Part shown: one piece after another, positions 9,531 to 39,286 of the stretch
How positions within the stretch are numbered: position 1 is the first letter of the stretch
Layout: every line of letters begins with the position of its first letter
NCBI GenBank assembly: GCA_035697325.1
Contig: DASSDB010000001.1
Span: 1 to 49,566, forward strand
Direction: 5' to 3'
DNA length: 49,566 nt
Source of the DNA: Candidatus Saccharimonadales bacterium
GTDB taxonomy: Bacteria; Patescibacteriota; Saccharimonadia; Saccharimonadales; Saccharimonadaceae
The notes under the pieces: generated by a model
The model's database searches: none
What the model was told of the DNA's origin: nothing
What the model saw: the letters and a program-made list of their open reading frames with translations, nothing else
Made by a program: the position numbers and the translations under genes

Positions 9531-9540
9531 GATCCCTACA

Positions 9541-10596
9541 TCACTTCACCAGGTCGTTGACCTTGCGCAGCGCGACCATGGTCTCCTGGAGGTTCTTGGG
9601 CCTCGGGAAACCGTTCCTCACTTCGCGCAGTTCGGCGGCCACCTTGGCGACCTCGGCCTTCACCGTCGCCTTGTCCACCATGTTGGTGGGGGCAGTGGTG
9701 ACCTTGGCCGCCTTCAGCTGCTGCGCGAGCGAGCCGGACTTGTTCTCGTCCCTCTCGTTCGTCAGTGCCGTTTCCGCGGCGGTCTTCGCCGTCTCGGCGG
9801 TGACCTTGGCGGCTTCGGCGTCCTTCAGCTTCTTCGCGAGCGAACCGTCCTTCTTGTCGTCGCGCTCGCTCGTGAGGGCCGACTTGGCGTCGTCCCGCTC
9901 GGTGGTGAGCGTCTTGACCTTGGCCAAGGCGTCCACCAGGATCTGCGGCTTGCGGTGCGAACCGTTCGGGTCGTCCACGATCGCCCAGTTGCCCAGGCGG
10001 GGGTGGTTGCCACCCTCCATGATGAGGAGGGCCAGCTCCGAACGCTCACCGGCGACCTGCGGGCTGAGCCCGTTGGTCGTGGTGATGAGGTCGATGAGGC
10101 CGTCGACGCGAGCAGCGGTGGCGTTGGTCACGAGCGGACGGATCCGGTCGATGACTGCCTCGACTGCCGGGTCGGGCGTGGTCGAGCCACTCCCGAGCTG
10201 CCGGGTACCACCGTTGTTGGCGGTGTCCTGGAGCTTCTTGAGCTGCGCCGCGAGCGAGTCCTCGTTGTCCTCGTCCGTGACCTCGTCGTAGAGCTTGGCC
10301 TTGCGGGCCAGCTCCGGGTCGGTTCCGGCCTTGATCTCCTCGCCGTTGTTGTAGGCGGCGAGGAGCTTGCGGGCCGTGGGACCGTCGATGTTCGTGAGGA
10401 TGGAGGGGAGCATGAGCTCCACCACCTGCACGATGGCGACGGTGTCCTTGGTCGAGTTGGTGTCGGCGACCTCCAGGAGCATCTCCTCGATCCGGCTGAG
10501 GGCCGCATCGACGGCCTCCACCTCGGTGGAGTCGATGTTCATGTCGGCGTCGTAGCCACGCTTGGCGTTGAGCGCGGTGCGCATGGCAGAACCCAT
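9541..10596 (-). CDS. GC-rich orphan gene A: helical protein with GSLA repeats
   Basis: A 351-residue acidic protein with no cysteine and no signal or membrane segment. Codons are strongly GC-ending (GCC, GAG, CTC, GTC), unlike infB and the 726-residue gene on either side. Three related blocks occur: DEDNEDSLAAQLKKL, ERDDKKDGSLAKKLKDAE and ERDENKSGSLAQQLKAAK. The last two sit in a long Ala/Lys/Glu coiled-coil region (about 225-320). I recognise no family. The start is uncertain: ATG 10596 marks where GC-rich coding begins, a weak GCGAGC precedes it, and ATG 10584 is possible. It is flanked by hairpins on both sides. Signs of transfer are clear; the function is unknown. Confidence 0.72.
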   Translation of the reverse strand: MGSAMRTALNAKRGYDADMNIDSTEVEAVDAALSRIEEMLLEVADTNSTKDTVAIVQVVELMLPSILTNIDGPTARKLLAAYNNGEEIKAGTDPELARKAKLYDEVTDEDNEDSLAAQLKKLQDTANNGGTRQLGSGSTTPDPAVEAVIDRIRPLVTNATAARVDGLIDLITTTNGLSPQVAGERSELALLIMEGGNHPRLGNWAIVDDPNGSHRKPQILVDALAKVKTLTTERDDAKSALTSERDDKKDGSLAKKLKDAEAAKVTAETAKTAAETALTNERDENKSGSLAQQLKAAKVTTAPTNMVDKATVKAEVAKVAAELREVRNGFPRPKNLQETMVALRKVNDLVK

Positions 10597-10904
10597 TGTA
10601 ATGCTCGCAATCTGCCCCGAATGGGGCGGTAGACGGTTGGATTTCCGTCCCACACCACTCGAGTAGGTGTGGGGAATGCATTGGTTATAGTTATAACATA
10701 GCCAACACATTTCCCACACCCACGATTGTGGAAGGTGAATAATGTGATTGTAGGGATATAGTGTGCTCATAACTCCGCAGAGGAGTTTGTGCTACACTAT
10801 CAACTAAATCGTTTTTAATGAACGTTCTCTATGAGGGAACAATATGTAGTATATCATTTAAATGACTAAATGTCAATGTACTTGTATAGTGCCAAGACCC
10901 GTTA
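10597..10904. other. Structured intergenic region upstream of divergent genes
   Basis: No gene seen. It holds four inverted repeats. (1) GCCCC gaat GGGGC, 10614-10627. (2) CCCACACC / GGTGTGGG, 10649-10673, with ACTCGAGT in the loop; both of these would lie in the leader of GC-rich gene A. (3) A long interrupted hairpin, 10755-10801: outer GATATAGTGT / ACACTATC with a two-base bulge, inner AACTCC / GGAGTT. (4) GTTCTC / GGGAAC, 10825-10841. None has a clear T-tail. The rest is AT-rich. No convincing -35/-10 pair for gene A was found. Confidence 0.6.
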
Positions 10905-33676: not shown

Positions 33677-34105
33677 CTAGTGCTTCACCTTCGTACGCTG
33701 CTCGCGCCGCTCCATCTCGAGCTCGAGAAGGTCGGAGCGCTCGCGGCGGATCCGATCGGTGAGGTAGTCGGCCACCAGGATGCGGGCGAGTTGCTTCGGC
33801 AGGTCGGCGATGGCGCCGCCCCACACGAAGAAGACAACTCCCTCCCACGGTCCCGGGTTGTAGGCCTTGCGACCTGTGCTGGCCAGCTCGGCCAGCCACT
33901 GCTGCGGGTCGAATGGGGGAGCGCCGATGACAGGCAGGTTGCCCGTGACCTCGGGGTGATGACTGTAAGCCTTCACCGTCCACTCGATTCCGCTGTGGGT
34001 GCACCCGTGGAAGTTGATCCCACGGAGTGTCACCTCACGATTCTCCTCGACAAACGCGCAGGCGCGCGCGAATATCTCATCGAGAAGGGGGGTGTTTCCA
34101 TTCAT
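33677..34105 (-). CDS. GC-rich orphan gene C: unknown protein
   Basis: 142 residues, soluble, no recognised family. A central part is rich in W, P and G (NPGPWEGVVFFVWGGAIADL) and the C-terminus is a charged helix (RIRRERSDLLELEMERRE). Codons are strongly GC-ending, unlike ileS and the genes after it. ATG 34105 has AAGGAGAG seven bases upstream; the ATG at 34129 places that Shine-Dalgarno inside the gene and is less likely. It has its own long hairpin terminator. Candidate for recent transfer. Confidence 0.75.
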   Translation of the reverse strand: MNGNTPLLDEIFARACAFVEENREVTLRGINFHGCTHSGIEWTVKAYSHHPEVTGNLPVIGAPPFDPQQWLAELASTGRKAYNPGPWEGVVFFVWGGAIADLPKQLARILVADYLTDRIRRERSDLLELEMERREQRTKVKH

Positions 34106-34458
34106 GGCACTCTCCTTTTCAGGACTCATTCCGGGTTGGAGTGAGAGTCGGGAGTGGTGCTGCCCGAGCTAAATGCCATAGTTTGCAAAACTACCAATGA
34201 GTGCTTATTTGCCAGATTATATATGTGTTCCAAACGTGATTTACAAGTAATACTTCACATATACAAAAGGCAGCACCAAGCATTATTATAACATTTTTAT
34301 AGCATATAGCAATAAAAATTACACCTGAAAGCCAGGTATAATTGATTTTGTTTCAAAGATCTCGGTGTTTAATACCGATTTCCACCATAAAGGCGAAGAG
34401 CTCAAGCGCTGTTTCCTTGCTAGTAGCATAAGCTTCACAAGGCACTCGAACAGAAATA
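34106..34458. other. Intergenic region with a 9-bp inverted repeat
   Basis: No gene seen. GGTGCTGCC (34157-34165) and GGCAGCACC (34270-34278) form a perfect 9-bp inverted repeat about 105 bases apart. They enclose AT-rich sequence holding a possible minus-strand -10, TATAAT (34221-34216), for GC-rich gene C. A small stem ACCTG / CAGGT lies at 34323-34337. The remainder shows nothing clear. Confidence 0.55.
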
Positions 34459-36938: not shown

Positions 36939-37769
36939 ATGAATGTAACCAAAGCAATTATACCTGTGGCTGGCTGGGGGACGCGTCGGCTGCCAATTAC
37001 CAAAGCTATTGAAAAATGTATGTTGCCTATAGGGAATATACCTGTGATTGATTTTGTCGTACAAGATTGTATGCGTGCGGGAATAAAAGATATCTACTTT
37101 GTAGTGAGCGGTGATGCGCCGCAACTTAAAAACTATTATGCACGCAATGAACAACTTGAGGTATATCTGCGAAAAAATGGGAAGGAGGCGATGCTGCCAC
37201 AGATAACTCCACCTAGCGAGATAAACTTCCATTACATTACTCAAGATACTACTGATAAATACGGTACGACGGTGCCGGTATGGCTATGTAGAGAATTTAT
37301 TGAACCAGAAGAGCAAGTGCTCGTGATAATGGGTGATCAATTCTTCTATCGTACTGACGGTGGTTCGAACGCCGCTGATTTGATAAGGCTCGTTGCCGAG
37401 AATAATCTTACCGTAGGACTTTTTGGCGTGCCTGTTCCAATTGAAGAAGTCCAGAAGTACGGGGTGATTGATAAGGATGAGAACAATTTTTATAAACGAA
37501 TTGTTGAACACCCCACTCCAGAAACAGCACCAAGCAACCTCAACAATGCCAGCTTTTACCTATTTGATCGTGTAATGTTTGATTATTTGGAGCGTGACAT
37601 GAACACCCTTCATACTGGTGAATATATGATCATTGATCCGATCAATGAATATGTCGCGGGTGGAAAGCAGATAATCGTGGGAGAGGCAAAGGGAGAGTAT
37701 TTGGATGCCGGCAGTGTTGAGGGCTGGCTCCATGCCAATCAAGTTGTCCTTACGCAAAATAAATTCTAG
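36939..37769 (+). CDS. galU: UTP-glucose-1-phosphate uridylyltransferase
   Basis: 276 residues. The nucleotide-binding start KAIIPVAGWGTRRLPITKAI, KCMLPIGNIPVIDFVV, GDQFFYRTDGG and EYLDAGSVEGWL are characteristic of GalU. It makes UDP-glucose for envelope sugars. A TACACT box (36927-36932) is six bases before the ATG and directly follows the stop of the upstream gene; leaderless. Confidence 0.93.
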   Translation: MNVTKAIIPVAGWGTRRLPITKAIEKCMLPIGNIPVIDFVVQDCMRAGIKDIYFVVSGDAPQLKNYYARNEQLEVYLRKNGKEAMLPQITPPSEINFHYITQDTTDKYGTTVPVWLCREFIEPEEQVLVIMGDQFFYRTDGGSNAADLIRLVAENNLTVGLFGVPVPIEEVQKYGVIDKDENNFYKRIVEHPTPETAPSNLNNASFYLFDRVMFDYLERDMNTLHTGEYMIIDPINEYVAGGKQIIVGEAKGEYLDAGSVEGWLHANQVVLTQNKF

Positions 37770-37808
37770 GAGCTTTGCCCGGTATCATGTAGGATAACCG
37801 GGCAGCTC
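37770..37808 (-). terminator. 3' hairpin of cassette D1
   Basis: On the minus strand: GAGCT, GCCCGGTTATC, loop, GATACCGGGC, AA, AGCTC, then CTAGAATTTATTTT. Ten pairs with one bulge in the inner helix plus five in the outer. Confidence 0.88.
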
Positions 37809-37817
37809 GTTTTTCTG

Positions 37818-38177
37818 CTACTGAACGTCGAGACGCGGGAGGCTAAGCCATTCACGCAGCTCGCCGAGCACCAGGATGATGTTGTTGCGATCGGCGTCGT
37901 CATCCCTCAGGAAGTACACGACCCAGCTGCGCACCCAGCAGTCGTACTCGCGGCTGTTCCTCGTGGCAGGAGGGACAAGCACGGGCCGATTGGTTTTCCA
38001 CAGCTCTCGCATCTCCGAGAAGATATGGTGTCGCACTTGGGTCGGGTCAATCTTGATACCGGTTTTGAGCCAGTACTCCGCGATGTTGTTGAACCACCGG
38101 GCAGTGTCCTGGACGTGGGTGAGGTTGAGGTTGGCTGCTTCATCAAGCAGCTTTGCACGATCGGATAACTCCGACAC
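37818..38177 (-). CDS. GC-rich cassette D1: paralogue of unknown family
   Basis: 119 residues from GTG 38177 with GGACGGAG eight bases upstream. No recognised family. It shares a pattern with the next two genes: WF, then an acidic-basic helix with IDP...R...MRELW, then WVVYFLRDDD and a C-terminal LRExLxLPxL. It is the most divergent of the three. GC-ending codons, own promoter, leader and 3' hairpin. Confidence 0.78.
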   Translation of the reverse strand: MSELSDRAKLLDEAANLNLTHVQDTARWFNNIAEYWLKTGIKIDPTQVRHHIFSEMRELWKTNRPVLVPPATRNSREYDCWVRSWVVYFLRDDDADRNNIILVLGELREWLSLPRLDVQ

Positions 38178-38214
38178 AATAAACTCCGTCCTGTCTAGAA
38201 AAAAGAGCTTTTTT

Positions 38215-38243
38215 ACAGTACCATCATGTTATTGAAGGATCAA
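38215..38243 (-). promoter_or_regulatory. Promoter of cassette D1
   Basis: TTGATC (38243-38238), a 17-bp spacer and TACTGT (38220-38215). The leader begins AAAAAAGCTCTTTTTTCTA, which is shared in outline with D2 and D3. Confidence 0.7.
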
Positions 38244-38270
38244 TACATAAGAGAAGAAATAAATTCTAAG

Positions 38271-38311
38271 GAACTTCGCCCGGTGTCCATGGAGGCACAC
38301 CGGGCGAGCTC
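38271..38311 (-). terminator. 3' hairpin of cassette D2
   Basis: On the minus strand: GAGCTC, GCCCGGTGT, loop, ACACCGGGC, GAAGTTC, then CTTAGAATTTATTTC. Nine perfect inner pairs. It starts three bases after the stop codon. Confidence 0.88.
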
Positions 38312-38314
38312 TGC

Positions 38315-38698
38315 CTACGCGGAGATCTGTTCGAGTTTGGGCAAGCCGAGATGCTCGCGGCATTCGTTCATGATGATGAAGGCGTGGCTTGACCACTTGC
38401 TGTAGTCGTCGTTCTTGGGATCGAGCAGATACATGATGCTGCTCATCACCCAGTTGACGTATTCCTCGTCGCAGTGCGCGCCGGGCGGCGTGAGGGACGG
38501 TGCGTAGAATGGGGTCGACCCCCACACCTCTTCCATGTTGCCCACGATGAACCTGCGGGCCCTTCGGTCCAGTTCCATTTCGTACCTCAGCCTCACCTGG
38601 ACGGCCTTTTCGAACCAGGTCATGACGAGGCGGTAGTTCGCGACGACCAGGCTCTGCGCGGTGCGGAGAACCTCCTGCACCTCTTCTTGCTCTGCCAC
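38315..38698 (-). CDS. GC-rich cassette D2: paralogue of unknown family
   Basis: 127 residues from GTG 38698 (CGGAGTG upstream). It is close to D3: TWFEKAVQVRLRYEMELDRR, ARRFIVGNMEEVWGSTP and MNECREHLGLPKL correspond block by block. Tryptophans and a conserved acidic region near residues 85-95 (DPKNDDYSKW) stand out. Soluble, helical, no known motif. GC-ending codons. Confidence 0.8.
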   Translation of the reverse strand: MAEQEEVQEVLRTAQSLVVANYRLVMTWFEKAVQVRLRYEMELDRRARRFIVGNMEEVWGSTPFYAPSLTPPGAHCDEEYVNWVMSSIMYLLDPKNDDYSKWSSHAFIIMNECREHLGLPKLEQISA

Positions 38699-38738
38699 GA
38701 TAATCACTCCGATCTCTAGTAGGAAAAAGAGCCTTACC

Positions 38739-38767
38739 ACTATACCATAAATATACAAAGTAGTCAA
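38739..38767 (-). promoter_or_regulatory. Promoter of cassette D2
   Basis: TTGACT (38767-38762), a 17-bp spacer and TATAGT (38744-38739) preceded by TGG. The leader GGTAAGGCTCTTTTTCCTA resembles those of D1 and D3. Confidence 0.82.
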
Positions 38768-38788
38768 TAAATAAGAAATAATTTCAGG

Positions 38789-38826
38789 GAGCAACGCCCG
38801 ACACTTCATGCATGCCGGGCGGGCTC
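38789..38826 (-). terminator. 3' hairpin of cassette D3
   Basis: On the minus strand: GAGC, GCCCG, loop with partial pairing, CGGGC, GCTC, then CCTGAAATTATTTC. Same plan and same tail as D1 and D2. Confidence 0.85.
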
Positions 38827-38833
38827 TTGTTGT

Positions 38834-39220
38834 TTAACGCGGCAATTTGAGCGCTGGTAACCCCAGGAATTCCCGGCAATCGTTCATGGTCTGTTCGGCG
38901 TGAGAGATCCAGGCATCGTACTCATCGTTGTCGGGATGGATCAGGAACATGATGTGCCTCATGACCCATCTGAAGTAAGTTAGAAGATTGCGCAGATCAT
39001 CCTCAGATGCATCGATGGAAGGAGCTCTGGCTGGGGTGGCGCCCCAGGTCTCCTCCATGTTCATGATCAGAAATCTGCGTGCCTTTGGATCGAGCTCCTT
39101 CTCGTACTTCACCGTGACCTGGACGGCTTTTTCGAACCAGCTCATGACTTCCTGAGCGTCTGCGACATTCAACGTTTCTGCGATGGTCTGAACTTCGGCA
39201 ACCTCTTCCGATTCGGCCAT
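38834..39220 (-). CDS. GC-rich cassette D3: paralogue of unknown family
   Basis: 128 residues from ATG 39220 with GGAAGGAG eight bases upstream. Blocks: SWFEKAVQVTVKYEKELDPK, ARRFLIMNMEETWGATP, RHIMFLIHPDNDEYDAWISH and MNDCREFLGLPALKL. Soluble and helical. Clearly homologous to D2 and, more distantly, D1. Codon use is slightly less GC-biased than D1 and D2. Function unknown. Confidence 0.8.
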   Translation of the reverse strand: MAESEEVAEVQTIAETLNVADAQEVMSWFEKAVQVTVKYEKELDPKARRFLIMNMEETWGATPARAPSIDASEDDLRNLLTYFRWVMRHIMFLIHPDNDEYDAWISHAEQTMNDCREFLGLPALKLPR

Positions 39221-39257
39221 GCCAGGCTCCTTCCGATAGAAAACAAGAGCTTTCTAT

Positions 39258-39286
39258 ACCCTATCATCGAACCTATATTGTGTCAA
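39258..39286 (-). promoter_or_regulatory. Promoter of cassette D3
   Basis: TTGACA (39286-39281), a 17-bp spacer and TAGGGT (39263-39258); TATAGA five bases further is an alternative -10. The leader AAAGCTCTTGTTTTCTA matches D1 and D2. Confidence 0.55.

Follow-up and report, generated by a model that had tools for sequence, protein, structure and literature searches.

Where mRNA decay relies on the RNase J, RNase Y and RNase III set, the accessibility of the 5' end matters. RNAIII of Staphylococcus aureus is a regulatory RNA which carries a 26-aa peptide, and type I toxin mRNAs, such as hok/sok and AapA, encode tiny toxic peptides and are linked to antisense RNA and regulated 3' processing. 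A 2021 review discussed three bacterial mRNAs with 5'/3'-UTR pairing, RNAIII, icaR and hbs, and left the applicability of such pairing to other genes as an open question (PMC7821165). In RNAIII, A24-G30 pair with U452-458 (PMC7821165); in the icaR mRNA of S. aureus a UCCCC motif at the 3' side pairs with the Shine-Dalgarno sequence (SD), repressing translation, with RNase III cleavage (PMC3868564); and in the hbs mRNA of Bacillus subtilis a 14-nt interaction between both UTRs protects from RNase Y (Braun 2017, as described in PMC7821165). The known cases are single mRNAs; recurrence of such pairing over a gene class, as described here, appears to be new.

The DNA analysed (hereafter the window; 49,566 bp) represents contig 1 of a 9-contig, 99.9% complete genome of 1.03 Mb. 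Its size, its gene content and the number of its orphan genes suggest that the organism is probably a Saccharibacterium. Between a galU-like nucleotidyltransferase gene (36939..37769, plus strand, recognised as an ORF and by comparison with relatives) and rplU, encoding L21 (39360..39668, plus strand, its promoter beginning at about 39298), the window carries three single-gene units of about 520 bp each, D1, D2 and D3, all on the minus strand, with elements spanning 37757-39286. In all three, -35 and -10 elements 17 nt apart are followed by a leader of roughly 32 nt and an RBS, then by an ORF of 119-128 codons, and the unit closes with a strong hairpin and A/T tail. The promoters, predicted with a simple scoring that places the +1 at 7 nt downstream of the -10, read TTGACA-17-TAGGGT in D3 (39258..39286), TTGACT-17-TATAGT, TG-extended, in D2 (38739..38767) and TTGATC-17-TACTGT in D1 (38215..38243). 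The ORFs encode 128 aa in D3 (38834..39220, ATG start, RBS AAGGAG), 127 aa in D2 (38315..38698, GTG start, RBS GGAG) and 119 aa in D1 (37818..38177, GTG start, RBS GGAG).

Downstream of the ORFs, hairpins of the form GAGC..GCCCGG..CCGGGC..GCTC were recognised by their folding and by a hairpin model at 37770..37808 (D1), 38271..38311 (D2) and 38789..38826 (D3), with fold z values against dinucleotide shuffles of -5.7, -5.8 and -3.8. Their stems are strong and are followed by AGAAUUUAUUUC rather than by a continuous U-run; in a scan for intrinsic terminators only D3 reached the criteria, and through a different stem. The hairpin model hits exactly the three D sites in the 1.03-Mb genome (E <= 3e-12) and, as it was built from these same sites, its informative part is the absence of any fourth one. 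Matches to the leader motif elsewhere in the genome were at background level (21, against 23 for the reversed control), and an Rfam scan of the window returned rRNA only. These results bear out an earlier note on this DNA, which had described three paralogous cassettes with repeated non-coding parts: all the elements it named were found on the minus strand, the 17-bp promoter spacing and the hairpin in each of the three units. The leader it quoted is exact for D1 (AGCTCTTTTTTCTA), D2 (GGCTCTTTTTCCTA) and D3 (AGCTCTTGTTTTCTA) having related but not identical forms, and its tail, AGAATTTATTTC, is exact in D2 only, since D3 reads GAAATTATTTC and the D1 tail (37757..37769) shares its bases with the end of the convergent galU-like gene (final codons and stop).

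In all three units the sequence which separates the stop codon from the hairpin is complementary to the leader of that unit, counted from the predicted +1, so that complementarity and folding designate both segments as the putative arms of a 5'-3' helix. In D3 (leader at 39221..39252, starting AAGCUCUUGUUUUCU) the segment GCUCUUGUU finds its exact reverse complement in AACAAGAGC (38823..38831, repeat pair I1), which lies just past the stop codon and reaches into the 5' arm of the hairpin, giving 9 contiguous pairs. In D2 (leader GGCUCUUUUUCCUACUAGAGAUC, 38702..38733) the partner GAUCUCCGCGUAGGCAGAGCU (38307..38327) includes the stop codon UAG and forms three helix blocks, GGCUCU..CCUAC..GAGAUC with GAUCUC..GUAGG..AGAGCU, while in D1 (leader AGCUCUUUUUUCUAG, 38178..38209) the partner CAGAAAAACGAGCU (37804..37817) offers 12 pairs in two blocks, AGCUCUUUUUUCU pairing with AGAAAAACGAGCU with one mismatch. 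The main helix spans roughly +1 to +15, and D2 is the only unit in which it continues toward the SD. Compared with dinucleotide shuffles of both segments, the complementarity gave P values of about 0.0045, 0.0075 and 0.0045 for the three units, values which are not independent, since the units are related and the GAGC/GCUC part of the pairing comes with the hairpin. When full-length transcripts were folded from the predicted +1, D2 and D3 had about 14 of their first 20 nt in pairs with the 3' partner (top probability of a pair 1.0 and 0.98, respectively) and D1 about 5 (0.35), the D1 ensemble being bistable and some 35% closed. In these ensembles the GAGC of the hairpin 5' arm alternates between the GCUC of the leader and that of its own 3' arm; because GAGC is common to both pairings, the leader would compete with the lower stem of the hairpin. 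On these grounds the predicted D mRNAs fit the class, represented by hbs, icaR and RNAIII, of mRNAs with intramolecular 5'-UTR/3'-UTR complementarity beyond chance.

From this pairing a mechanism can be proposed. Each D cassette (promoter, short leader, small and probably all-helical protein, hairpin) would be transcribed into a short mRNA of its own, and in the cell the initial 9-20 nt of this mRNA would pair with the region which extends from the stop codon to the hairpin 5' arm, forming a closed loop, or panhandle. This would bring the 5' end against the base of the hairpin, which could switch between the two partners of its GAGC, and the stop codon near the ribosome-binding site, which would itself remain mostly free some 20 nt further on. 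The likeliest benefit would be the shielding of the 5' end from 5'-dependent decay by RNase J or from RNase Y entry; genes for RNase J, RNase Y and RNase III are all present in the genome.

By analogy, hbs would be the closest precedent for the proposed protection: a 5' UTR pairs there with its own 3' UTR against a background of RNase Y/J-type decay, and the role demonstrated for hbs is the one which the D helix may have. Nevertheless, hbs is a single conserved native gene, whereas here unrelated orphan genes employ sequences of their own and pair from the predicted +1, and in the D units the pairing reaches into the 5' arm of the hairpin. The icaR mRNA shares the intramolecular pairing of 5' and 3' UTRs, but with the SD as the paired element, while in the D units the predicted helix takes up the bases transcribed first and leaves the RBS mostly free, D2 being a partial exception. 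RNAIII is likewise a transcript of about 500 nt (a predicted length in the case of the D units) closed by 5'-3' pairing, although it is a regulatory RNA without a paralogue family. As for hok/sok and AapA (see also PMC6733600), the 5' end of the full-length mRNA pairs with its 3' end, as in the predicted D mRNAs; the short hydrophobic toxic peptide typical of type I toxins is, however, replaced here by acidic proteins of 119-128 aa, predicted to be all-helical, and neither an antisense RNA nor regulated 3' processing was noticed.

Compared base by base in the order D1-D2, D1-D3 and D2-D3, the units are 87, 77 and 73% identical in hairpin plus tail (z 11.8, 6.9 and 7.1), 74, 73 and 66% in the leader (z 5.6, 4.9 and 2.7) and 74, 56 and 70% in the promoter region (z 3.3, 0.1 and 3.2), the identity of the ORFs at the DNA level being 60-63%. 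Leaders and hairpins are, therefore, more alike than random, as the earlier note had expected from such an alignment. Its view that the unit of duplication is the whole transcript stands in so far as the repeat runs from promoter to putative terminator, but the promoter likeness of D1 and D3 is undetectable. It had further claimed that RNA parts are kept while proteins diverge, and had proposed a comparison with dN/dS. By the counting method, the differences amount to 66-72% at synonymous and 33-54% at nonsynonymous sites, against 13-27% in the hairpins and 26-34% in the leaders, so that the predicted RNA parts are kept well beyond synonymous sites; between D2 and D3, on the other hand, the conservation of hairpin and leader is about that of nonsynonymous sites and no better. 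Moreover, dN/dS for this pair is about 0.27 (comparisons with D1 are near saturation), which indicates that the encoded proteins are under purifying selection too; the claim thus stands in part. What the earlier reading missed is that the conservation of the leader may have a reason, namely its complementarity to the 3' UTR of the same unit.

A first alternative is that an orphan gene, with an ordinary promoter and an intrinsic terminator, was simply duplicated in tandem, in which case likeness would reflect kinship and the complementarity would have no role. This is possible, if doubtful: the D units are clearly paralogous, the conservation of the D2-D3 hairpin is no better than that of nonsynonymous sites, and D1 pairs weakly in its full-length fold. 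Nevertheless, the complementary letters differ between units and the pairing is nonetheless kept (CUUGUU/AACAAG in D3, CCUAC/GUAGG in D2, UUUUUCU/AGAAAAA in D1), and unrelated genes of the same genome show a replicated excess of pairing in register with the predicted +1.

This excess was determined in 640 kb of the genome, sampled in stretches, using simple ORF calls and retaining isolated genes with good -10/-35 elements and a GC3 above GC. Windows of 14 nt at set distances from the -10 were paired with the gene's own 3' UTR and with those of other genes, correcting for row and column means, and the GC-rich class was defined by a GC of at least 0.525 (mean about 0.475). The test was developed on sample 1, and sample 2, taken later, is the only replication within the genome; the window, and with it D1-D3, lay outside the gene sets of both samples, which makes the tests independent of the array. 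In sample 1 (n=25) the excess was -1.3 to -1.6 kcal/mol in windows 0 to +6 after the -10 (P 0.001-0.004, and 0.00035 at +3 in a separate calculation), and in sample 2 (n=14) it was -2.5 kcal/mol at +6 (P 0.0007). The pooled GC-rich genes (n=39) gave P 0.0001 at both +3 and +6, with no significant excess at -24, -15, -6, +12, +21 and +30, and the AT-richer isolated genes (n=33) gave no pairing signal. In addition, six GC-rich genes were in the top tenth of both rankings, compared with 1.3 expected (P 0.0012), and none of the others. Perhaps one GC-rich isolated gene in four contributes to the class effect, pairing being clear in about 6-9 of 38; when the two most extreme genes were left out, sample 1 was significant for the 14-nt window only (P 0.005) and not for longer ones. 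An ungapped score restricted to Watson-Crick pairs, on a set which includes D1-D3, was 6.24 for own and 5.45 ± 0.18 for swapped 3' UTRs. The signal emerged with anchoring to the -10: duplex z-scores computed gene by gene, with no reference to the promoter, did not separate the classes, and scoring of helices only gave a weak result in each class.

Among the pairing genes, GCACUACACAUCACC pairs with GGGUGAGUGUAGUGC in L098 13760, ACUCUUUAC with GUAAAGAGU in L103 794, GCGCAUUAG..GCUACC with GGUAGC..CUAAUGCGC in L049 1969, and CACCUCGA..CUACAGA with UCUGUAG..UCGAGGUG in L034 4328. A Pfam scan of ten of the encoded proteins left most of them without a family above the cut-off, the exceptions being a transglycosylase/transpeptidase and a SnoaL-like protein, together with a sub-threshold alpha/beta hydrolase match, from which the design is taken to be independent of gene function. 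Two of the best pairing genes, one PBP-like and the other hydrolase-like, went without a match, at the thresholds applied, in 60 further genomes of the family. The GC-rich transglycosylase/transpeptidase gene (L049 1969-4206), with no match at E 1e-60 in those genomes, has one of the strongest 5'-3' pairings (-31.5 kcal/mol).

The position of the signal also bears on the sign of the effect. A 5'-3' helix could be inhibitory, a fold-back in the style of hok/AapA or icaR which limits translation until 3' trimming or provides an RNase III substrate. In agreement with this, the helix of D2 continues in the direction of the RBS (GAGAUC/GAUCUC) and takes in the stop codon, RNase III is encoded in the genome, and in icaR the pairing masks the SD and gives rise to a substrate for RNase III (PMC3868564). 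However, the signal is centred on the first 15 nt or so and fades by the position of the RBS, unlike icaR, the D ORFs, with 119-128 aa and acidic products, are not membrane toxins of 30-60 aa, and no antisense RNA gene was noticed, all of which makes inhibition unlikely compared with the protective loop proposed above.

The history of the array was assessed by comparison with relatives. In G001, of the same genus, and G005, of the same family, rplU lies within about 60 nt after the galU homologue, with a recognisable rplU promoter region, an empty site which in the window carries 1.5 kb of cassettes. Because galU directly precedes rplU in both relatives and the D1 tail overlaps the galU end, the array is an insertion between these genes in the present lineage. 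As to the copies in relatives which the earlier note had wanted counted, the 392 genomes of the order hold no relative of the D proteins apart from one weak match in G372. This match, a stretch of 35 residues with a stop, was taken as chance. D3 as a query recovers D2 at 1e-37 and D1 at 5e-5, with protein identities of 53 and 23%, the three proteins being true paralogues. It is about an even chance that D1-D3 are copies, arisen by tandem duplication, of one acquired single-gene cassette, each making its own closed-loop mRNA.

An insertion of this kind could also mean that the inverted repeats work at the DNA level, as the ends of invertible or mobile gene cassettes. The arms flank the ORFs, the array sits at an otherwise empty site and the GC-rich ORFs appear foreign. 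Yet the arms start at the predicted +1, leaving promoter and hairpin outside, their sequence is gene-specific and imperfect, and the neighbouring ORFs, inspected by eye, include no recognisable recombinase. Moreover, ungapped Watson-Crick alignments contained 11 G-U mismatches, compared with 6.5 when swapped, and 6 A-C mismatches, compared with 6.2, a weak hint for RNA. Such a role is, in consequence, highly improbable, and the D cassettes, which carry their own promoters, differ in this respect from typical integron cassettes.

Returning to paired mRNA ends, these look like a trait of acquired monocistronic cassettes, with unrelated sequences, since the design recurs in some of the other isolated GC-rich genes of this genome. 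A wider proposal, which we put forward tentatively and consider rather improbable as it stands, is that Saccharibacteria hold a class of portable, self-contained cassettes (promoter, gene, hairpin) whose mRNAs form loops as their first bases pair with the 3' UTR through cassette-specific arms, the loop either giving stable expression in a minimal cell or having been selected at acquisition. A closed-loop design may protect or control newly acquired genes, and class-wide pairing suggests how very small bacteria could stabilise or control foreign genes. A class-wide tendency in one genome, in register with the transcription start, makes the question raised in PMC7821165 testable at scale, and would offer a signature, readable from sequence only, by which the transcript ends of orphan genes in uncultured bacteria and the autonomy of such genes could be recognised. 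GC-rich isolated genes are far less frequent in the sampled relatives, where the pooled data (n=25) give a weak signal, though at the same position, with a best P of 0.0056 at +6 among nine windows. In G001, the GC-rich isolated gene at L131 2017-2367 has a leader CCGCUUA which pairs with UAAGCGG over the stop codon, a sign of the paired-end design in a sister species.

The D proteins themselves had no significant family match in Pfam, NCBIfam, PHROGs or PADLOC, and no relatives in GTDB contigs, IMG/VR, phages or plasmids. An AlphaFold2 model from a three-sequence input predicts five helices (mean pLDDT 69), and a PDB search with it gave generic helical bundles only, the best match having an E of 0.7.

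Other loci of the genome were noted in the course of the work. Contig 2 has, at 240-260 kb (L039 1-20000), a dense series of orphan ORFs which are GC-rich and for the most part isolated; they may be an island of acquired cassettes. At L046 4293-4757 and 9184-9999 long inverted repeats join upstream and downstream flanks, including one perfect 11-bp pair (GTACGATACCA/TGGTATCGTAC); they do not start at the predicted +1 and could be operators or another element. Within the window, a GC-rich isolated orphan ORF beside ileS (33677-34129, minus strand) has a strong UUCG-capped hairpin and no clear 5'-3' pairing. Finally, in the GC-rich ORF at 9541-10770 (minus strand), AUCCCUACAAUCAC in the predicted start region pairs with GUGAUGUAGGGAU at the stop codon (arms 10744-10757 and 9532-9544, 13 pairs with one bulge), and this ORF is possibly a further paired-end unit.
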